Positions 10,357 to 22,764 of a stretch of DNA of 64,000 bases are shown here, piece by piece. The DNA comes from Synechococcus sp. UW140. Lineage in GTDB: Bacteria; Cyanobacteriota; Cyanobacteriia; PCC-6307; Cyanobiaceae. Numbering within the stretch: the stretch's first letter is position 1; every line of letters begins with the position of its first letter. Position numbers and translations under genes: made by a program. The stretch spans positions 1-64,000 of the forward strand of contig NZ_UCOB01000034.1 of NCBI RefSeq assembly GCF_900474295.1, given 5' to 3'. The notes below the pieces were generated by a model that ran no database searches, was not told the origin of the DNA, and worked only from the letters and a program-made list of their open reading frames with translations.

Positions 10357-10447
10357 GACGGATAACGGGAAGAGCAGACGACTGGTGGCAGCTCCCTAGG
10401 ATCGCTTGATTGAGTCGAACAGCCCGAGCCGGGACACCGCCAACCGC

Positions 10448-12262
<1,815 letters not shown>

Positions 12263-12309: not shown

Positions 12310-13956
12310 TTAGCTGTTGTTGTCCAGTTGTGATTCTTGCACTGATTCAACATCAACGTAGTTGTAATCACCGCTTGCGAGTTGAGATAGTTCCTGCATC
12401 CATCCGGATTCCCGTCCAAGCGAAATGGTGTGAATGGTGATGGGTGAAGGCCTTTGGTGATTGAGCTCGCTGAGTCCCGCTGCTGTGCCCTCGAAATTAT
12501 TGCTTGTTGTGCCTTGGATGTAACTAGGATTCTGTGTGGGTTTGCCGTCCGACAGGAAGAACAGTGTGTCGGCATCGTGATCATCTAAGGCTGCTTTGAG
12601 TCCTCCCCAAGGATCGGTATAGCTCCCTTTGTATTCGTCGATCGAGTTGATAAAGGCAAAGGCTGACTCAAGCACGTTGTCGTCGCCGATGCGGCTCATG
12701 GTTTGACCGTTGTGCAACCAGCCTTTGTGATTATTGGTGCCGGCAATGCTGAATGATTCAAGTCCCACTTCGGTATTGGGTGCCGAATCATGCAGGTCTT
12801 GCAGGAGCGTGATCAGCTCACCTTTGAGGGCCTGCATGCGATTGACGATGCAGGGATAAGTCGCCTTGGCTCGCCCTGATCGTCCTCTTCGGCCACGCCT
12901 TGTGACGACGTAAACAGGGGTTGGGCTTTGATAGATGCAGGTTTGCATTGATCCTGATCCATCCAGAAGGAAGCGAACGTTCTGACTGAGTTCTCCTCGG
13001 AAGAACAGTCCATCAAGAACAATGTTTCCATCGATTACTTTGGCAATACGTTTGTCTGCCCTGGCGTAGGCAGTGAACTGCAATGGTTGTAAGGATAGGC
13101 TACGCAATCCTGTTGAAAGTTGCAGGAAGCTGGGGATCGCAGTTTCATTCGCGTCGATGTAGTTCGGATTGGGGCCAATGAAAGTCAGTAAACGACGGTC
13201 AGCATCTGTGCTGAAGCGAAATGCCGGTTCTCGGTATCTGCGTGGGGGTGATGACTCATCTTGGATTTCGTGGTTGAAGCTCGTTCGATTGATCGTATCT
13301 GTCAGGATCTCTTCGAGTGATTTGTTAACGGTTTTGCCATCCATTTCTTTGGTGATTGCTACAGGTTCCTCGCACTCCGTTAGTTCGTTCTGGTCGTTTA
13401 CACAGGTTTCCTGTGGCATGACCCCAATGTCATCGAGAAGTGTTGCCACGTATACGTTGCTAACGTCATAACTCCCATCTTCTCGAATGGCTGGTCCGCA
13501 TCGGTAAAGGGCATAGCGATGTCCACTTGCATTGAGGCCGATGCCATAGATGATTGGTAAGAGTGGAAGTTGGCGAGAATTGCGAAGCCCAAAGATTGGC
13601 TTAAAACTACCCGCGGTAGAGTCTTTGCAGACATTGATTGCTCCACCGCTCCCCTCATGGTTTTGCAGATCTGTGTCTGTTCCAGCTCGGTTACCTGTTT
13701 CGTAGATCAGTAAGTGATCTGCCTTTGTTGCTTCGTTTCGGAGCAACTTCAGTCCGTTAATGGTGTTTTGCCGCAATGTGGCACGTGAGCCAGATGTGCG
13801 CATCACTCCCTGCATGGATTGCAAGGCGGTTCCGGCTCCGATGATCACCAGTCCACCCGCGGCAAGGGAGACAAGCATCTCAGTCATCCCAAAACCCTTC
13901 GCGTTCTGCTTGCGATTGGGATGGATCGTCAGCTTGTTCTGAGGTTTATGAATCAT
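12310..13956 (-). CDS. Prepilin fused to von Willebrand factor A domain (putative pilus tip adhesin)
   Basis: A 548-residue protein with a type IV prepilin N-terminus: a basic leader, then G21 followed by F22-G-M-T-E26 and a hydrophobic helix, giving the G|Fxxx(E5) cleavage logic. Residues about 50-320 resemble a PilW-like minor pilin body. Residues 327-540 form a VWA domain with a complete metal-ion-dependent adhesion site: DGSGS at 332-336, T447 and D470 (LSDGKPT). VWA domains carrying an intact MIDAS typically bind ligands through Mg2+. It is the last gene of the minus-strand pilin operon. Inferred role: minor pilin at or near the pilus tip that mediates adhesion, analogous to VWA-containing PilY1/PilC tip proteins but built into the pilin. 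Confidence 0.85.
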   Translation of the reverse strand: MIHKPQNKLTIHPNRKQNAKGFGMTEMLVSLAAGGLVIIGAGTALQSMQGVMRTSGSRATLRQNTINGLKLLRNEATKADHLLIYETGNRAGTDTDLQNHEGSGGAINVCKDSTAGSFKPIFGLRNSRQLPLLPIIYGIGLNASGHRYALYRCGPAIREDGSYDVSNVYVATLLDDIGVMPQETCVNDQNELTECEEPVAITKEMDGKTVNKSLEEILTDTINRTSFNHEIQDESSPPRRYREPAFRFSTDADRRLLTFIGPNPNYIDANETAIPSFLQLSTGLRSLSLQPLQFTAYARADKRIAKVIDGNIVLDGLFFRGELSQNVRFLLDGSGSMQTCIYQSPTPVYVVTRRGRRGRSGRAKATYPCIVNRMQALKGELITLLQDLHDSAPNTEVGLESFSIAGTNNHKGWLHNGQTMSRIGDDNVLESAFAFINSIDEYKGSYTDPWGGLKAALDDHDADTLFFLSDGKPTQNPSYIQGTTSNNFEGTAAGLSELNHQRPSPITIHTISLGRESGWMQELSQLASGDYNYVDVESVQESQLDNNS

Positions 13957-14061: not shown

Positions 14062-14778
14062 TCAGGAGTCAAGCGTGCATGAGCAGTGAGTGGAGTCCCA
14101 AAAGTTTGGTTCGCTATCTGGATCATGGGGGCATGCTCTGTTGCTGTTCATACCGGTTTGATTCCAGTTGCCACTGCTGAGCTCTCCATTGCCTGTGAGT
14201 AATACACAGCGAACACGTAAACCATCAGCATGATTCGCTCGTGATGACCGGATTAGTAGTGTGAGGTCCTCTCCACTGGTGCTTGTTCCAGGAGGGGAGA
14301 GGATATAGCCGGAGGTGAGTGTGGCAACCTCAATGGCATTCGATTCTGTACTGTTCTCGAGGCTAATGAGCCTGTAGTCGTCTGTAAAAACGTCGTGTGG
14401 TAAGCATTTGAGGCGTTGACCAGAACATGCTTCTAAGGGGTTGTCAGTGAATGTCAGTTTTGTCTTCGTTGTCGGGTCGAAGAATTCCAGGAGCTGCAGT
14501 GGCTCTCCAAATTGATTGGTGCCAAGGCCTTGATGGGTGGTTGAGTCTGCTGCGAAATTGATGCAACAGTTGGAGCGGTCGACTCCGAGGTCTGCTCTGA
14601 GGTTGAATAGACCGCTTTCCACCATCTGTGTGTAACGGTCTACTTCGCCTTGCCAAGCCAGTTTGCGATAGCTGGGTAGAGCCCATCCCAGCATCATGGT
14701 GGCAATTGCTGCAGCAATGACCAGTTCTAGTAGGGTAAAACCCTTGTTGCGTGTTGTGGAAGCGGAGGGGATTTTCAT
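14062..14778 (-). CDS. Type IV pilus minor prepilin
   Basis: A 238-residue prepilin with a leader ending in N-K-G, then F-T-L-L-E and a hydrophobic helix (LVIAAAIATMMLGWALPSY): standard PilD cleavage and methylation features with Glu at +5. The C-terminal body has eight or more cysteines (SNCCINF, EACSGQRLKCLP, RCVLLTG, HCSCTLDS), suggesting several disulfides in the mature secreted domain. Its start overlaps the stop of the upstream prepilin gene by 4 bases (ATGA), so the two are translationally coupled. It is a minor pilin within an operon of six pilus genes. Confidence 0.85.
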   Translation of the reverse strand: MKIPSASTTRNKGFTLLELVIAAAIATMMLGWALPSYRKLAWQGEVDRYTQMVESGLFNLRADLGVDRSNCCINFAADSTTHQGLGTNQFGEPLQLLEFFDPTTKTKLTFTDNPLEACSGQRLKCLPHDVFTDDYRLISLENSTESNAIEVATLTSGYILSPPGTSTSGEDLTLLIRSSRANHADGLRVRCVLLTGNGELSSGNWNQTGMNSNRACPHDPDSEPNFWDSTHCSCTLDS

Positions 14779-15383
14779 AGTTGGAAACAGTGAGGTGCGT
14801 AGTTGGGATTGAGTTCCAATACGCGTTGCTCTTGTCTGAGTTTTGCTTCAGGGGTGTTGAATCGATAAATAATCAGGGCTGTCATCGCGCTTGTTGCATT
14901 CGGGCCTGCAATGATCTCTCTGCTTAAGTTGATCTTGGCGCCAAATGTTTTTGGTGCTGAAACAGAATATTGGCCATTCGCCTCTTCGAATTTTCTACGT
15001 AGATAGGTTACTGGCCCCACATTTGTTGTGCTATCACCCGTTGTGAGTTGGCCGTTGCAGGCTGCATTCTCCTCATTCGCTTCTTTGATTGATTCCCATG
15101 TCAGCTGGGAATCCTTCTGTTGGATGCGTTCCATATTGTCGAGAATTTCGGCTTCGATATTGCTGCGAATGGCCTTGTTCTGGCTACCTGTCATCGCCGA
15201 GACGGAAAAGCGTGCCACCGCTGTCATGGTCATGACCGTGATCAGGCCTGCGAGCAGTACTTCGATGAGAGTGAATCCACGGTTGCTTTGAAGAGCAACG
15301 TCTTTGCTTGCGAAGCGCAGCCAGCCAGGTCTAGTCCTCGTGAGTGGCAGCTGTCGCTGCGCAAGAGGAAAAGATCTGGCCAT
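14775..15383 (-). CDS. Type IV pilus minor prepilin (PilV/PilW-like)
   Basis: A 202-residue prepilin. The leader is long (about 35 residues, ALQSNRG) before the G|F-T-L-I-E processing site and the hydrophobic helix VLLAGLITVMTMTAVARFSV. The body is soluble, with two cysteines (ENAACNG and the C-terminal HCFQL). The long leader suggests the true start might be an internal codon, but no internal ATG precedes the cleavage site. It is coupled by ATGA overlap to the next minor prepilin gene downstream and lies 100 bases after the PilX-like gene. Confidence 0.8.
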   Translation of the reverse strand: MARSFPLAQRQLPLTRTRPGWLRFASKDVALQSNRGFTLIEVLLAGLITVMTMTAVARFSVSAMTGSQNKAIRSNIEAEILDNMERIQQKDSQLTWESIKEANEENAACNGQLTTGDSTTNVGPVTYLRRKFEEANGQYSVSAPKTFGAKINLSREIIAGPNATSAMTALIIYRFNTPEAKLRQEQRVLELNPNYAPHCFQL

Positions 15384-15481: not shown

Positions 15482-17266
15482 TTAGTTTCCGAAGCGTTGG
15501 AAGGTATCGAGACCGTCACCGCGGAGTCCTCGTAAGGTCGATTTGCCAAACCCTCTGAATCCGTAGTCTGCCCACTGCCATGCTTTGGCCGCGTCATAGA
15601 CGTACGATGCTGACTTGATTGCTTGGATCGTTGAACTTGAAGATGTGAGCATGTTGGTGTCACTACTTGTGTAGAGATCTAAGGAATGGCCATTGGTGCA
15701 GATGCTGCGAGACCAAATAATTCCCTTCAGTGTTGTGTTGCCGCTCAGTTGAACACTTCCATGAGCCATCGCCAGCCAGGCCGCTGGTAATGTGCTTCCC
15801 TTGAAACTGACTGTATTGGTGGTGTCTGAGCAGGCTGTAGATGAATACCAATCGGAGTTCATTTCGCTACTGGCAATGACTAGCTCTTCAGGGTTTTCAC
15901 TGCAGGTTGGTGTTCCACTATCGCTGATATCGGCACTAACACACAGCTGACTCTCTCCAGTGAGGACAATGCTTCCGCCTTTCCCTATCGCTTCTGGGTT
16001 GCTAGTAGGAAGAGTTAGGTGAAGAACAATTTTTCGGATTCCGTTGTTCGCTCCAGTTGCTTCAATAAATACTTTGGTTTGGTTGAGATGCATGTGCTCA
16101 ACATAGAGATGGCAGACATTTGAATTTGGCTGGCTTGTGCAGATCTCATCGTGGTTAATCTTGATGATATTATTTGCGCTTCCGTCATCCAAGAGAGGCG
16201 GTGTTCGGTATGTGGAGCCATTGTCTTCTCGTGTGCAGGCGATTGCTGTGCAGTCACCGCGGAACGCTGATGCATCGGGGCTTCGATCATCAAAGCTCCA
16301 AACTCTGCGTACGTTGCTGTTGTCTGGATCCATGTCTTCTGTTTTGTCTCCTTGAAACAACACGGCTGTCGGAAGACCGCGATTCATTGGCCAAAACAAA
16401 GGATCTGAGCCTGTTGCCGTTGTGTCTTGCCTCGTGACGGTGCTTAGCATGTTGCTGCAGGTGGATGGCGGCGTTGATCTCAGCCATGCAACCAGCCCAT
16501 CGCCGTGGATCGTGGTATTGCCCAGATCAAATTGCTCTGCGGCCAGAACAGCCCAGTACTTTGGTGCATCTACTGATGCGTAGATATCGAGATAACGCGT
16601 CATTAAGGATCGTGCTACCTGGTCTTTATCGCCATTCGTGCTGGTTCGCTTGATGATTCCTTCAACTTCAAAGACCCCTTTGCCTTGACCACTTGTTTGA
16701 TCGAAGCTGATCAGTTTGTAGGAGCGGAGCCTAAAGGATGGTTCAATTCCACGGCCGCCATCTGTTCTTAGCAGGCTAGTTGCTTTCCCCTGGCTATCCA
16801 CCGTGTTCAGCGTGACTGGCGTGGCTGTCTGACTGATTGGATTTCCCGATGTACGGCCAGTAGGCCACAACAGGTTTGTGCCTGATGGGTGGTCGGGAAA
16901 CGTGTTTGTGTCTGTGCAATATTCATCAATGCTGGGGTTAACGATTTCCCACTGGTAGTCTTCCACGAGCGCGCCGGTGTCTGGATCAGGGATGCTCGAG
17001 TTGTTGAGGAGATATAAATAACCCAATTCATTGCCTGGGCTGTTGAGTGTTCCAAGGATACGATTAAAGCCATTGACGGCTGCATTTTCAGCCATTTGCT
17101 GGTAGCTATCAAATGTGCCGATTTTTCGGGCCATCAGTTGTCTGATTACTAAGCCTGTGGCCCCAGCAATCAGAATGAGGCCCACCATCAGGGCGATCAC
17201 CATCACAATGCCCTGATCCTCTTGGGAGGCTTTTCGTCTCAGATGGCGATAAGGGTGTGTGCGCAT
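15482..17266 (-). CDS. Large PilX-like pilus assembly protein
   Basis: A 594-residue protein with one N-terminal transmembrane helix of the PilX type: EDQGIVMVIALMVGLILIAG near residue 20, lacking the +5 Glu that typical pilins carry, as in PilX/GspK proteins. The remaining 550 residues are a large extracellular domain with scattered cysteines (DEYCTD, TCSNM, DCTAIACTRED, VCHLYVEH, TACSDTTN, SICTNG). GspK/PilX proteins cap or initiate the pilus; this one is much larger than Gram-negative PilX (about 200 aa). It sits three bases downstream of the preceding prepilin gene and is clearly co-transcribed. Confidence 0.8.
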   Translation of the reverse strand: MRTHPYRHLRRKASQEDQGIVMVIALMVGLILIAGATGLVIRQLMARKIGTFDSYQQMAENAAVNGFNRILGTLNSPGNELGYLYLLNNSSIPDPDTGALVEDYQWEIVNPSIDEYCTDTNTFPDHPSGTNLLWPTGRTSGNPISQTATPVTLNTVDSQGKATSLLRTDGGRGIEPSFRLRSYKLISFDQTSGQGKGVFEVEGIIKRTSTNGDKDQVARSLMTRYLDIYASVDAPKYWAVLAAEQFDLGNTTIHGDGLVAWLRSTPPSTCSNMLSTVTRQDTTATGSDPLFWPMNRGLPTAVLFQGDKTEDMDPDNSNVRRVWSFDDRSPDASAFRGDCTAIACTREDNGSTYRTPPLLDDGSANNIIKINHDEICTSQPNSNVCHLYVEHMHLNQTKVFIEATGANNGIRKIVLHLTLPTSNPEAIGKGGSIVLTGESQLCVSADISDSGTPTCSENPEELVIASSEMNSDWYSSTACSDTTNTVSFKGSTLPAAWLAMAHGSVQLSGNTTLKGIIWSRSICTNGHSLDLYTSSDTNMLTSSSSTIQAIKSASYVYDAAKAWQWADYGFRGFGKSTLRGLRGDGLDTFQRFGN

Positions 17267-18605: not shown

Positions 18606-19889
18606 TTGAAACACCAGTTGCTGCCATCACTGCGGGCTTGGTTGCAGAACACCGCCCTGCTCACGGTGATTGCTGGTTACACCGTGCTTTTGGTTGTGAA
18701 TGGCGCTTTGGCGGATTGGCAGCGCCGCCAGAACCACCAACGCTTGCTGGCTGCTCTTTTGCAGCAGTCGACCCTTGAGCAGCTGGATTCCGTGCCGCTT
18801 CGCACTGTGGGCTTGGAGGCGACACTTCGCGCCAAGGGGCCGGAGCTGTCTCCTCGCCTCACAACAGGCCCCGCAGGTGAACAGTGGCTGGAGAGTCGCA
18901 AGCGCCTGCGTTTGCCCAGTGGTGACATCCGTTGGCTGGCGCTGCGCCAGAACGTCTCCGGTTCCCTGGAGCAGGAGCGCTTCAGCCAACTGCTCCTGAT
19001 TGCTGCTGCTGGCGTTTCCATCCTGTTCACCTCAGTGTTGCTCCGCCCTGTGCTGCGGCGGGGCTTGGTGGTGCCCCTGAATGAGCTCGATCAACAGCTG
19101 CAACTGCTTGAGGCCGACAACCTCGGTGAGCATCTACTCGATCCAGCCCGTCAGCCACAGGAACTGGAAGGCATTGCCATTGCCATCAACAACCTCCAGC
19201 AGCGCTTGGCAGCTGCCTGGCAGCGGGAGCGTCAGTTTGCGGATGGCGTGGCCCATGAATTGCGCACACCGATCACGTTGATTTCCGGCCGCTCGCAGCG
19301 CTTACTGCGCAAGCCCCATGCGCCAGAGCAGCATCAACCGCTGCAGCAGATTGCCGAGGAGGCCTCACGCATGGCGGCGCTGATCAGATCACTGTTGGAG
19401 CTCGCCCGTCGTGATTCGGGTCGTTTGCAGCTTGATCTGCAGCCTTGTGATCCCGAGCAGATGCTGTTGGAAGCGTTTGAACGCCTCTCTGCGTTGGCGG
19501 CCGGTCGCTTGCAATTGGCGCCAGCCAAGGATTCGGGGCTCCCTGCGCTTGCGGCGGATCCGCAACGCTTGCAGGAATGTCTACTTGCCTTGGTCGATAA
19601 CGCCCTGGCCTACAGCGAGGCCAGCGTGCACCTGAGGGCCAGCCTTGAGTGCAGCGAGCAACAGCAATGGGTGGTGTTGCATGTGCTCGATCGGGGCCCC
19701 GGTATTGCCGTGAGTGAACGCAGCCAGGTGCTTGCTCGGTTCGCGCGGGGTAGCAGTTCAGTCGGAACTCGCGGCAGTGGCATCGGCCTGGCGGTGGTTC
19801 AGGAGCTGATTACCGCCATGGGGGCTGAGCTGGTGATCGCCGACCGTGCCGGGGGTGGTGCAGACGTGCAGCTGGTCTTCAGGGTTTGA
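18606..19889 (+). CDS. Membrane sensor histidine kinase
   Basis: A 427-residue two-transmembrane sensor kinase. TM1 lies near residues 17-36, a periplasmic sensing region follows to about 125, and TM2 is near 126-145. A HAMP-like linker leads to the HisKA box DGVAHELRTPITL (phosphoacceptor His about residue 217) and the ATPase motifs VDNALAYSE, DRGPGI and GSGIGLAVV. The start is TTG. Its partner response regulator lies tail-to-tail on the opposite strand, the 3' ends overlapping by 11 bases, an unusual layout for a two-component pair. Position inside the pilus block suggests a role in pilus or surface signalling. The ligand is unknown. Confidence 0.9.
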   Translation: MKHQLLPSLRAWLQNTALLTVIAGYTVLLVVNGALADWQRRQNHQRLLAALLQQSTLEQLDSVPLRTVGLEATLRAKGPELSPRLTTGPAGEQWLESRKRLRLPSGDIRWLALRQNVSGSLEQERFSQLLLIAAAGVSILFTSVLLRPVLRRGLVVPLNELDQQLQLLEADNLGEHLLDPARQPQELEGIAIAINNLQQRLAAAWQRERQFADGVAHELRTPITLISGRSQRLLRKPHAPEQHQPLQQIAEEASRMAALIRSLLELARRDSGRLQLDLQPCDPEQMLLEAFERLSALAAGRLQLAPAKDSGLPALAADPQRLQECLLALVDNALAYSEASVHLRASLECSEQQQWVVLHVLDRGPGIAVSERSQVLARFARGSSSVGTRGSGIGLAVVQELITAMGAELVIADRAGGGADVQLVFRV

Positions 19890-20589
19890 CCTCACCCAGC
19901 CGGGCCATGAAGCCCACCCCGCGCACGGTGTGCAGGAGCTGCGGGAGCCCCGATTGCTCCAACTTGCGGCGCAGATAGCCCATGTACACATCCAGGGTGT
20001 TGGGGTCGCCGACGAAAGGATCTCCCCACACCCTGCCCAGGATTTGCTCACGGCTCAGCACCGATCCTGCTTCCTCCACCAAACACACGAGCAGATCGAA
20101 TTCCCGCTGCGAGAGATTGATGGCGCTCTCGCCTCGCTTCACCTGGCGGCTGATCAGATCAATCGAGAGATCGCCCAGTTCTAATGAGCTTTTGGCCTCT
20201 CGATCGGCGGCATAACCACCGCGGCGTAATTGGGCCCGCACCCGTGCGTGCAGTTCCTCCAGTTCAAAGGGCTTGGTGAGGTAGTCGTCGGCGCCGGCAT
20301 CGAGGGCCGAAACACGGTCCTCGAGGGCATCGTGGGCGGTGAGCATCAGCACCGGAGTGGTGTCACCGCTGCTGCGCAGGCGCCGGCAGATTTCCACCCC
20401 ATCAAAATCCGCCAGGGTCCAATCCAGAACCACCAGGGCAAAGTCGCCTTTTCGCAGCTGCATCAGTGCGTCCTGGCCGCTGGGCACGGCAATGCAGTGG
20501 TGGCCTTCCCCTTCCAGTTCCTCCTGCAGAAAGTGCAGCAGTTCAGGGTCGTCATCCACCAGCAGCAACTGTGCTGTTGAAACGCTCAC
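19879..20589 (-). CDS. OmpR/PhoB-family response regulator
   Basis: About 236 residues. The receiver domain begins LLLVDDDPELL, with the phosphoacceptor Asp in VVLDWTLADFDG, a switch Thr in MLTAHD and Lys in DDYLTKPFELEEL. A winged-helix DNA-binding domain follows from about residue 140 (SLELGDLSIDLISRQVKRG through VDVYMGYLRRKLEQ-type motif DVYMGYLRRKLE). I start at GTG 20587-20589, just before the receiver fold; an ATG 17 codons upstream would add an unstructured extension. It is convergent with, and presumably phosphorylated by, the adjacent histidine kinase. Probable targets are the flanking pilin operons (inference). Confidence 0.9.
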   Translation of the reverse strand: MSVSTAQLLLVDDDPELLHFLQEELEGEGHHCIAVPSGQDALMQLRKGDFALVVLDWTLADFDGVEICRRLRSSGDTTPVLMLTAHDALEDRVSALDAGADDYLTKPFELEELHARVRAQLRRGGYAADREAKSSLELGDLSIDLISRQVKRGESAINLSQREFDLLVCLVEEAGSVLSREQILGRVWGDPFVGDPNTLDVYMGYLRRKLEQSGLPQLLHTVRGVGFMARLGEVKP

Positions 20590-20685
20590 CCCCGTCACCA
20601 CCACTACCCGCAGCGTATCCACGCTGTTTCGCCATGCCATGGCATCTGATCACATCAGCACGGGGGGCAAGTCAAAGCAGGGGGA

Positions 20686-21252
20686 ATGCTTTCGCCACTT
20701 GGTTTTTGGCCCATGCTGAACTGCTTGCACGTCTCTGCTTCTCGCTGGCATCTCAGCCATCACCACCGGCGCAAGACAGGCTTCGTGCTTCCCCTGGCGC
20801 TTGGTACCTCGGTGGTGCTCTTGCTCGGAAGTGCCTCGATGCACAGCCTGGCGCTGCATGGCCGTCTGCGTGCCCGCATCGACGTCCAGCAACATCAGCG
20901 CCGTGATCAGCTCCGCTCTGCCGCGATGGCGTTTGCGGCGCAGGCTGCTGCCCCAGGCCAGGACTGTCTCCTGGCTTGGGGAGCCAGTCACTGGGATGGC
21001 TTGAACCGTATCTGCCCAAAGGCAGACCTCAAGGCGTTGCGAGCAGGGCAGGTGGGCGAGACCCGATGGCGACTGCTGGATTGGCAGCCCAACGGTGAGC
21101 AGGCGCAGCTGCAAGTGGTGTTGGTCTCCAGCGGTAGTGCCGCTCAGTTGCTTCTGCGGCGCAGGGATACGGGCTTCCAGCTGCGCCAAGGTTTGCAGAT
21201 CTTGCCCGCAGTCGATGTCGCGAAGACGAGCCCCGATGAGGTGGCCCTATGA
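20686..21252 (+). CDS. PilX/GspK-like pseudopilin-cluster protein
   Basis: A 188-residue protein with a basic, His-rich leader (SHHHRRKTG) and a single hydrophobic helix FVLPLALGTSVVLLLG. The residues after the probable G|F junction lack a +5 Glu, as in PilX/GspK. The remaining part is a soluble extracellular domain with two cysteines (QDCLLAWG and NRICPK). It is first of four overlapping plus-strand genes that look like a second minor-pilin set. ATG at 20686 has a purine-rich GGGGGA very close; the next ATG (20713) is an alternative start. Confidence 0.7.
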   Translation: MLSPLGFWPMLNCLHVSASRWHLSHHHRRKTGFVLPLALGTSVVLLLGSASMHSLALHGRLRARIDVQQHQRRDQLRSAAMAFAAQAAAPGQDCLLAWGASHWDGLNRICPKADLKALRAGQVGETRWRLLDWQPNGEQAQLQVVLVSSGSAAQLLLRRRDTGFQLRQGLQILPAVDVAKTSPDEVAL

Positions 21253-21638
21253 CCCTCGCCGAAGTGCTCGTGGCTGGCGTCATCGTCAGCTCCAGCTGCT
21301 GCGCCTCGTTGCAGGTGTGGAGTCAAACGGTCCAGACCACCCAGGCCGCCCGTGACCTGGTGCAGACCGGGGAGCTGTTGGAGTTGCAGTGGATGCTCAG
21401 TCGTCGCTGGCTGGCGGCTGTTGAGGTGCGGTGTCCGGTGGATTCCTTCGCCCTTGAGGTGGATCTGGATGAGGCCCTGCCGCTGGAGGCGGGCATCAGC
21501 CGCCGCTTGGTGATGGATCACAGCCTCGAGGGGGTGTGGTTAACGCTGGAGCACAACGCCACTGGTTTGCTACGCCGCCAGTTGTTCACGGCGGCTGGTA
21601 GCGGCTGGTGCCGTTCCAGCCGCGAGACCGAGTCATGA
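21249..21638 (+). CDS. Pseudopilin apparently lacking a leader peptide
   Basis: A 129-residue protein beginning directly with M-T-L-A-E-V-L-V-A-G-V-I-V, so the initiator Met occupies the +1 position of a mature pilin and the Glu stands at +5. An in-frame TGA a few codons upstream excludes a longer start. The gene overlaps its neighbours at both ends by ATGA-type junctions. The body has a Cys pair (VRCPVD and SGWCRSS). If real, prepilin peptidase cleavage would be unnecessary or impossible. It could resemble PilV/GspI-type subunits. Whether it is exported at all is an open question. Confidence 0.65.
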   Translation: MTLAEVLVAGVIVSSSCCASLQVWSQTVQTTQAARDLVQTGELLELQWMLSRRWLAAVEVRCPVDSFALEVDLDEALPLEAGISRRLVMDHSLEGVWLTLEHNATGLLRRQLFTAAGSGWCRSSRETES

Positions 21639-22150
21639 CCCATCGCTCCTGTGCTGGCGGTTTCTCATTGCTGGAATGCCTGCTGGCTATCTCGCTGCTG
21701 GCGATCCTCAGCAGCGTGGTTGTCGTCCACACCGGTGGCGACCGTGCTCGCCAGCAGTTGACTGCGGCGGCTCAAGGCTTGCAGATGGCGATCGACCGCG
21801 GTCGCCTCTCGGCTCTGCGTCGCCAACAGGCCTGTGCTCTTCGTCTCACTGATGTCGGTTTGCAGCCCGATGGTGCAGGGGCGCTGCCGTCCTGCCCAAG
21901 CAGTGGGGTGGTTCTTGTGGACCCACTCACCACCTCTGGAGTGAGCCTGCACACCAATGTTTCCGGCCTGCTTCGCTTCAGTGCCAATGGTTTGCTACTG
22001 GATGGCGGTTTGGTGGTGTTCAGCCATCCGGCGTCGCAGCATCGGCCTTGTGTGGTCGTGAGCCTGCCCCTGGGCGTCACCCGCCAGGGTGTCTATGGCA
22101 TTGATCCTGCGGCGCAGTTGAGCAGCAGCCACTGCCTGCCACGCTCATGA
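21635..22150 (+). CDS. Type IV pilus/GspH-like prepilin
   Basis: A 171-residue prepilin. A short leader MTHRSCAGG precedes F-S-L-L-E and the helix CLLAISLLAILSSVVVV. The alpha-1 continuation DRARQQLTAAAQGLQMAIDRGRLSALRRQQ and following strands match GspH/FimT-type minor pilins, which initiate pilus assembly. ATG at 21635 overlaps the upstream stop by 4 bases; an earlier in-frame start (21608) would lie inside the preceding gene. Two Cys in the body (QACALRL, LPSCPSS) and two more near the C-terminus (RPCVVVS, SHCLPRS) may form disulfides. Confidence 0.8.
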   Translation: MTHRSCAGGFSLLECLLAISLLAILSSVVVVHTGGDRARQQLTAAAQGLQMAIDRGRLSALRRQQACALRLTDVGLQPDGAGALPSCPSSGVVLVDPLTTSGVSLHTNVSGLLRFSANGLLLDGGLVVFSHPASQHRPCVVVSLPLGVTRQGVYGIDPAAQLSSSHCLPRS

Positions 22151-22764
22151 CCAGCCTGCAGCCATGCCCGCGGAATCGGTCTGCTGCGGGATTCACCCTG
22201 GTGGAACTGTTGCTGGCCGCCTCTCTCGGCACGGTGTTGTGTGGTGTGTTCGTTCAACTGCTGCTGGGAGATCTTCGCCTCACGGGTGCGATGGCTCAGC
22301 GCTTGCGAGCCCGGCGCATCCAGCAACGCACCATCGCCTTGATGCGGGCTGAGCGGGAGCTGGGGCATGCGCTGGTGACCGACCCACCACTGTCATCAAC
22401 CTGGCCCTGCAATCTGGCCGGCCGGCGGCCGGTGTTGGCGCTGGCGCTCTCTGCCCATGACCGGGAGGCGCGACAGCAGGCGATCGTATACACCGTTGGC
22501 AAGCCTCCCTCCCCGATCTGGCGCGGTGCGGTGCTGATGCGCTGCGGTCCGGCCTATGGCCTAGATGGCCAGATCGATCTGAACGGCCGGTTTCAGAATC
22601 GGGTGCTGCTGGATGGCCTACCCGTTGGAGAAGGCAAGGGGCTGCTGGCGCTGCCCCATCCTCAGCTGCCCGTGGTGGCCATCACCCTGGAGCAAGAGCT
22701 GCCCGCGTCGGGGCGCGCTGATGGATCGAATGCCATGCGTCTGACCAGTCGCGCTGCTCTCTAA
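22147..22764 (+). CDS. Type IV pilus minor prepilin (PilW-like)
   Basis: A 205-residue prepilin whose start overlaps the upstream stop (ATGA). A Ser/Asn/Arg-rich leader precedes A-A-G|F-T-L-V-E and the helix LLLAASLGTVLCGVFVQLLL. The following QRLRARRIQQRTIALMRAERELGHAL is a long amphipathic continuation, typical of PilW. The body includes TWPCNLAGRRP and LMRCGPAYGLDG (disulfide candidates). RCGPA also appears in the VWA-prepilin (YRCGPAIRED, about residues 152-161), so these two PilW-like proteins look paralogous. It is last in the plus-strand minor pilin set. Confidence 0.8.
   Translation: MTSLQPCPRNRSAAGFTLVELLLAASLGTVLCGVFVQLLLGDLRLTGAMAQRLRARRIQQRTIALMRAERELGHALVTDPPLSSTWPCNLAGRRPVLALALSAHDREARQQAIVYTVGKPPSPIWRGAVLMRCGPAYGLDGQIDLNGRFQNRVLLDGLPVGEGKGLLALPHPQLPVVAITLEQELPASGRADGSNAMRLTSRAAL

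Follow-up and report, generated by a model that had tools for sequence, protein, structure and literature searches.

A predicted pilin–VWA fusion encoded beside lepA in Synechococcus, a candidate modular minor pilin of picocyanobacteria

Modular pilins number more than 1,200 in 264 architectures (PMC8179133), a survey that may include picocyanobacterial entries. Established fusions of a pilin to a VWA domain are PilB of S. sanguinis (PMC8179133) and CpaL of Caulobacter crescentus (PMC12607857). A crystal structure is reported for PilB, whose VWA domain binds Mg and Mn; when metal binding was lost, adhesion and twitching were impaired but piliation was not (PMC8179133). Minor pilins at the pilus tip are considered here within the frame of the HIJK tip complex (PMC10191384; PMC9934059). 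In the picocyanobacterium Synechococcus WH7803, loss of PilA1–PilE abolished the pilus and cells sank, with the mutant being efficiently grazed (PMC7994388). The open literature searched (mainly open-access, few papers in full) reported no pilin–von Willebrand fusion for picocyanobacteria, Prochlorococcus or cyanobacteria, and no minor pilin with RTX or hemolysin-type repeats was reported in a search of the same mainly open-access kind.

We analyzed a gene in a 64,000-nucleotide stretch of DNA from Synechococcus sp. UW140 (the window) for which a preliminary description had proposed a prepilin N-terminus and a VWA domain with a complete MIDAS within one chain. This was confirmed by the open reading frame, by conservation and by the predicted fold. 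The further claim that both functions in one chain would be unusual was not borne out, PilB (PMC8179133) and CpaL (PMC12607857) being such fusions. As in modular type IV pilins (PMC8179133), a pilin fold follows the signal peptide (a moderate match) and a VWA module that is not pilus-specific has been added.

The VWA pilin and its predicted folds

The coordinates first given for the gene, 12310-13956, were correct, with the strand, left unstated there, being minus (Table 1). On the plus strand of 12310-13956 stops interrupt the sequence and no open frame is present. Conservation was assessed across 29 sequences, consisting of the window protein and 28 full-length homologues (each 32–37% identical to it), excluding duplicates, a 362-aa partial homologue (L029) and two RTX-type proteins. 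The prepilin site originally read as G21|F22...E26 is present, with G21 conserved in 28/29 sequences, F22 in 26/29 and E26 in 29/29, and is followed by a hydrophobic stretch. The VWA pilin would be cut after G21 by prepilin peptidase, for which the genome of the window has one match, alongside two platform-protein genes and one secretin.

Searched alone, the window protein matched N_methyl in Pfam at E 0.0067, under the cut-off, with VWA not matched at E ≤ 0.1, a best NCBIfam match at E 0.014 and nothing among PDB sequences at E ≤ 1. A VWA domain was thus not callable from the window sequence by itself, and a family scan and fold comparison were needed. Across the 29 members, Pfam at E ≤ 0.1 detected VWA_2 in 21, VWA_3 in 8, VWA in 2 and N_methyl in 7. 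A single match, GTSF1 (E 0.66), was returned when the profile was compared with PDB sequences and was rejected as chance; no sequence relation of the VWA pilin to any PDB chain was found.

The AlphaFold model of the full chain, built from 17 sequences, had a mean pLDDT of 73.9 and a pTM of 0.61, with residues 1-53 below 50. At E ≤ 0.001, Foldseek yielded 25 hits in the PDB, the top ones being VWA-like TFIIH subunits. In the best rows the TM-score by query length was about 0.21–0.26, low because the VWA module makes up under half of the chain. PilB of S. sanguinis was absent among the 50 fold matches listed for the full chain, an absence that carries no weight. On residues 306-542, VIA-align gave a Z of 17.9 over 161 residues for inter-alpha-inhibitor heavy chain 1 (6fpz), 15.3 for an Aeromonas adhesin VWA and 15.2 for the pilus adhesin SpaC. 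Residues ~306-542 are, in the model, a VWA fold with a complete MIDAS; the preliminary description was to be abandoned if a structure model had no VWA fold, and the model has one.

MIDAS motif 1 (D332-G-S-G-S336) begins 311 residues past G21, and the five MIDAS residues that had been pointed out in DGSGS, T447 and D470 are all invariant. Since only 59/548 positions are invariant in the alignment, this is well above chance. T447 lies in the model between helices 428-438 and 450-458, and D470 immediately past strand 464-469, placements which we take to match those of known MIDAS sites. The module would bind a divalent metal at this site. Directly after motif 1 lies a variable arm, with a median identity between the window protein and the 28 others of 16% for residues 340-372 vs 37% for residues 373-540. 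The PilY1 domain PF05567 had no match in the window protein at E ≤ 0.1, and genome searches for it found 0/1 in the genome of the window and 0/292 across the phylum, with the control genomes likewise lacking a match.

The base was also modelled alone (residues 22-322), giving a long helix and a beta sheet with a mean pLDDT of 73.6 and a pTM of 0.74; pLDDT was low for leader and helix in the models. Foldseek found nothing for the base at E ≤ 0.001, and its likeness to GspJ comes from a second look with VIA-align only. There, the eight best rows were all minor pseudopilins or pilins with Z 5.0–6.8 (next row 2.8), values below 8 and hence in the range where a common arrangement could explain the likeness. 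Seven of the eight are entries containing a GspJ protein (XcpW, EpsJ or the XcpGHIJK model) and the other is Thermus TTHA1219; one row was shown per entry, with chain identity inferred from length except for XcpW (3nje). The base most resembles GspJ/PilW-type minor pilins, the match being moderate. PilW is presumably the type IV pilus counterpart of GspJ, and the early guess of a PilW-like protein fits this moderate match.

Table 1. Coordinates of the VWA pilin gene, its parts and the neighbouring genes in the window.
Feature	Coordinates	Strand	Basis
VWA pilin gene, 548 aa; leader, PilW/J-like pilin base, C-terminal VWA module	12310..13956	minus	ORF and translation; 29-sequence alignment
Prepilin leader, residues 1-21, G21 last	13894..13956	minus	Translation; G21 28/29, E26 29/29
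Pilin base, residues 22-300, helix alpha1 and beta-rich head, predicted GspJ/PilW-like	13057..13893	minus	Model m9407f5e40f99, VIA-align
Predicted VWA module, residues about 306-542	12331..13041	minus	AlphaFold model me19af8a3b4e1; VIA-align Z up to 17.9
MIDAS motif 1, D332-G-S334-G-S336	12949..12963	minus	29/29
Variable arm, residues 340-372, directly after MIDAS motif 1	12841..12939	minus	C340 and C369 both 29/29; short strands in model
MIDAS motif 2, T447	12616..12618	minus	29/29
MIDAS motif 3, D470	12547..12549	minus	29/29
Minor pilin, 238 aa, H-like (tentative)	14062..14778	minus	N_methyl and IV_pilin_GFxxxE over cut-off; ComGE E 0.00032 and GspH E 0.0029 under cut-offs; syntenic
Minor pilin, 202 aa, PilV/I-like (tentative)	14775..15383	minus	HpsC E 1.4e-7 (best), PilV E 2.9e-5, gspI E 0.0028, all under curated cut-offs
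Large PilX/K-like protein (tentative), 594 aa, pilin-like hydrophobic N-terminus without Glu5	15482..17266	minus	Sequence; WH7803 counterpart 28.5% identical
PilE-like pilin, 181 aa	17270..17815	minus	N_methyl over cut-off; ComP_DUS E 7.1e-5 under cut-off; syntenic with second pilin of WH7803
Major-pilin-like PilA, 205 aa	17902..18519	minus	N_methyl E 4e-8; syntenic
lepA, convergent neighbour marking the locus in relatives	10406..12262	plus	88.7–99.7% identical in relatives mapped

The locus beside lepA and its distribution

The VWA pilin gene faces lepA and closes a minus-strand run in the order PilA-like, PilE-like, K-like, PilV/I-like, 238-aa pilin and VWA pilin; the gene order is identical in Synechococcus WH7803 (L051). 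The 594-aa K-like protein matched no family in Pfam or NCBIfam. In WH7803, SynWH7803_1797 lies directly downstream of pilA1–pilE and is described as a secreted protein of unknown function (PMC7994388). From gene order, SynWH7803_1797 would correspond to the K-like gene, with the VWA pilin encoded three genes further on. Proteomics of WH7803 reported PilA1, PilE and low-level SynWH7803_1797, with no detection of the VWA pilin in the parts of that report covered here, and the term 'von Willebrand' does not occur in its main text (PMC7994388). A histidine kinase gene (plus) and a response regulator gene (minus) lie at 18606-20640 of the window, between two pilin clusters, and such genes adjoin the pilin operon in several relatives too. 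The second pilin cluster (20686-22764, plus) may be the PilA3–PilW type cluster of WH7803; it contains a short PilW-like pilin (22147-22764) with an RTX-type-like base and no module. A promoter and terminator scan was uninformative, with 4 and 7 sites compared to 5.2 and 8.2 in shuffles.

At E ≤ 0.001, a protein search matched 25 of 60 related genomes, counting that of the window, and 0/23 outside the family. With the family profile, 58 of the 300 family genomes gave a full or partial match at E ≤ 0.001. At E ≤ 1e-80 the VWA type was found at 44 places in 38 of these genomes, six of them with two, a count that leaves out weaker or partial rows and one genome (G032) that has the base but no VWA. 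Among the matches listed, 38 VWA-type places had lepA on the same contig; all 38 faced it at a distance of no more than 10 kb, and for 24 the distance was no more than 1 kb. The place in G032 lacks lepA on its contig and stands outside the lepA counts. Across 292 genomes of the phylum, 11 places matched along almost the full profile, and all of them belong to this family; six genomes outside the family matched part of the base only. Phage records gave no match at E ≤ 1e-3. Two metagenome-assembled genomes named as Gammaproteobacteria and Coxiellaceae carry a picocyanobacterial VWA pilin gene (NYVG01000024.1, DCQA01000034.1) and are probably mis-binned contigs. In four genomes (G140, G281, G287, G327) the profile found only pieces of the VWA part, 42–163 bases from lepA, which suggests that the operon has been lost repeatedly and has left remnants. 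For 7/7 two-copy genomes, the tree placed the two VWA copies in different clades shared with other genomes. The position of the window protein itself is unsure because of its very long branch, and we drew no conclusion on its ancestry.

Ten proteins of small-genome relatives (L078, L079, L080, L082, L084-L086, L110-L112; 457–504 aa) have a prepilin start and a similar C-terminal end. DxSxS was found in 6/10 and not in L080, L110, L111 or L112 by a simple text pattern, with which absence proves nothing. Pfam matched VWA in L078, L079 and L082, and also in L083, which failed the text pattern for the prepilin start.

Two homologues were matched at the base only and carry C-terminal RTX repeats (PF00353) in place of VWA. 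Comparison of the VWA-type and RTX-type bases by hhalign gave a probability of 97.9% (E 4.9e-13), and 94.8% (E 5e-8) once the helix (the first 50 mature residues) was left out, compared to 2.6–10.2%, and 0.1–0.4% without the helix, for four other pilin families of the operon; the alignment spans 137–139 columns (70 without the helix), part of the base only. The RTX-type base profile at E ≤ 1e-40 found 23 places in 23/300 genomes, leaving out weaker or partial rows such as G307:C1:1246570 (4.5e-40). The class rests on this base profile, with the repeats checked by Pfam in a subset of 12 proteins, of which 10 matched PF00353 at E ≤ 0.01, 9 passed the cut-off and two (L024, L074) had no match. 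Examples are L030:6522-7829, L031:4780-6129, L073:10486-11697 and L077:7493-8782, their pilin operons lying mostly near lepA. Among the matches listed, 17 RTX-type places had lepA on the same contig, 15 of them within 10 kb and all 17 facing it. In G027, a tallied gap of 2.4 Mb reaches across both ends of a contig of 2.48 Mb and would be ~58 kb if that contig is circular. By type, five of the 300 genomes have both, 33 VWA only and 18 RTX-type only. G016 and G024 each have lepA between a VWA operon and an RTX-type operon, beyond which lies another VWA operon; the RTX-type protein of G024 has no PF00353 match.

Other ends were also observed. L029 (1813-2901, from G032) has a homologous base (35% identity) and a Gln/Thr/Asp-rich repeat tail in place of VWA, and the DxSGS pattern is absent in the three frames of that strand. 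By text-pattern search, L100, L102, L103 and L109 encode further pilins of similar base, whose short C-terminus resembles the RTX cap but has no repeats.

The other operon genes differ between VWA-type and RTX-type operons, and whole operons, rather than modules alone, may therefore be exchanged. We tentatively propose, as a possibility short of a probability, that the lepA side is an exchange site for whole tip-pilin operons in picocyanobacteria, the last gene of each operon encoding a J-type pilin whose homologous base would carry an interchangeable ligand-binding module, either a VWA, its MIDAS being of the Mg/Mn type, or an RTX domain that binds Ca. A single genome could combine two or three of these operons with one pilus machine and swap tips to change what the pilus touches, such as particles, neighbours, grazers or phages.

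Proposed role and alternatives

The VWA pilin is probably a modular minor pilin of the type IVa pilus, J-type and tip-located, with a ligand-binding VWA module. Once processed, its helix would insert into the pilus by way of the base and the protein would join a tip complex with the K-like, I-like and H-like partners from its operon, the most likely arrangement because the base looks to be of J (GspJ/PilW) type. The VWA module would be held outward at the tip, binding a divalent metal at the MIDAS and thereby a ligand, and the protein would do for this pilus the job of PilY1, tip adhesion and perhaps force sensing. The built-in tip adhesin of the preliminary description remains the best mechanism that we can offer, one in which we infer both 'adhesin' and 'tip', as we do processing and metal binding. 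Counting against this role are the base Z below 8, the lack of a Foldseek match for the base, the low full-chain TM-scores and the low pLDDT in helix and leader, together with the absence of the VWA pilin from the WH7803 proteomics described above and of the motif 1 text pattern from 4/10 small-genome proteins. In addition, the pili of WH7803 are described as showing no apparent twitching and no aggregates (PMC7994388), so adhesion is not an obvious phenotype there. The same observation would suit a VWA module acting at the tip mainly to sense mechanical force or to regulate how the pilus assembles and retracts, with ligand binding secondary, as proposed for PilY1 and CpaL. Loss of CpaL, a predicted pilin–VWA fusion, cuts piliation and stimulates surface sensing (PMC12607857), the invariant C340 and C369 flank the variable stretch beside the MIDAS, and the kinase and regulator genes adjoin the operon here and in several relatives. 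However, that gene pair could just control pilin expression and shows no link to the VWA module, and the replacement of VWA by RTX repeats in relatives suggests varied binding over one conserved sensor; we regard a mainly sensory role, the leading alternative, as rather doubtful.

A structural relic, with VWA as a bulky cap that has no ligand, would fit the missing motif 1 pattern in 4/10 small-genome proteins (text-pattern search) and the four genomes with only VWA-part pieces beside lepA, which indicate that the gene can be lost. It is quite improbable given that the five MIDAS residues are conserved in 29/29 sequences of the Synechococcus type but the adjacent stretch varies freely. In other cyanobacteria, competence involves minor pilins (PMC12288463), and the window protein has a strongly basic stretch beside the MIDAS, as might be expected if the tip complex bound DNA and the VWA module helped in its capture. 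Competence is, however, tied to PilA3 and not to the PilA1 pilus (PMC7994388), and the basic stretch is confined to the window protein and its two closest relatives rather than being family-wide, making a role in DNA uptake very unlikely. An assembly or frame artefact joining two genes, the other ground named at the outset for giving up the fusion, can practically be dismissed, because intact copies occur in finished genomes: the fusion is one open frame in single-contig assemblies and in the named complete genomes of WH7803 (CT971583.1) and RCC307 (CT978603.1), and recurs at the 44 places counted above. The reading as a tip-located minor pilin with a ligand-binding module is the one we retain.

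Comparison with known pilin fusions and tip proteins

The concept of a pilin–VWA fusion is known; as far as our searches show, no description exists of its J-like setting in a diderm, of the conserved locus at lepA or of the alternation between VWA and RTX modules. PilB resembles the VWA pilin in its class III signal peptide, pilin module and C-terminal VWA with MIDAS, in its predicted tip location and in having arms that protrude beside the MIDAS (PMC8179133). It differs in belonging to a monoderm pilus in which PilABC replace HIJK (PMC10191384), whereas here the base is J-like within an HIJK-like set of a diderm. The base here has ~280 residues, whereas the pilin of PilB is called small. CpaL is likewise a diderm, minor-pilin-like protein with a predicted fused VWA with MIDAS that fits the tip, but it belongs to a Tad pilus, a beta-rich insertion interrupts its VWA and its reported role is in surface sensing and piliation (PMC12607857). 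PilY1/PilC proteins with a vWA also present this domain at the tip of type IVa pili; PilY1, however, is not a pilin and docks on the tip minor pilins through a C-terminal propeller (PMC8179133), whereas the VWA module here is covalently joined to a pilin.

GspJ/PilW minor (pseudo)pilins are similar to the VWA pilin in the predicted fold of the base. The solved GspJ proteins that the base matched presumably carry neither a VWA nor an RTX module. The RTX-type relatives share with the VWA pilin a homologous base and a pilin operon near lepA and differ in their repeats (PF00353) and in their other operon genes, so that relatives put a different metal-binding module on the same base. The VWA pilin is a candidate for a tip protein whose metal site can be tested and which has a counterpart in WH7803, the strain with a pilus knockout, and it would extend pilin–VWA fusions to an apparent HIJK-type set in a diderm.
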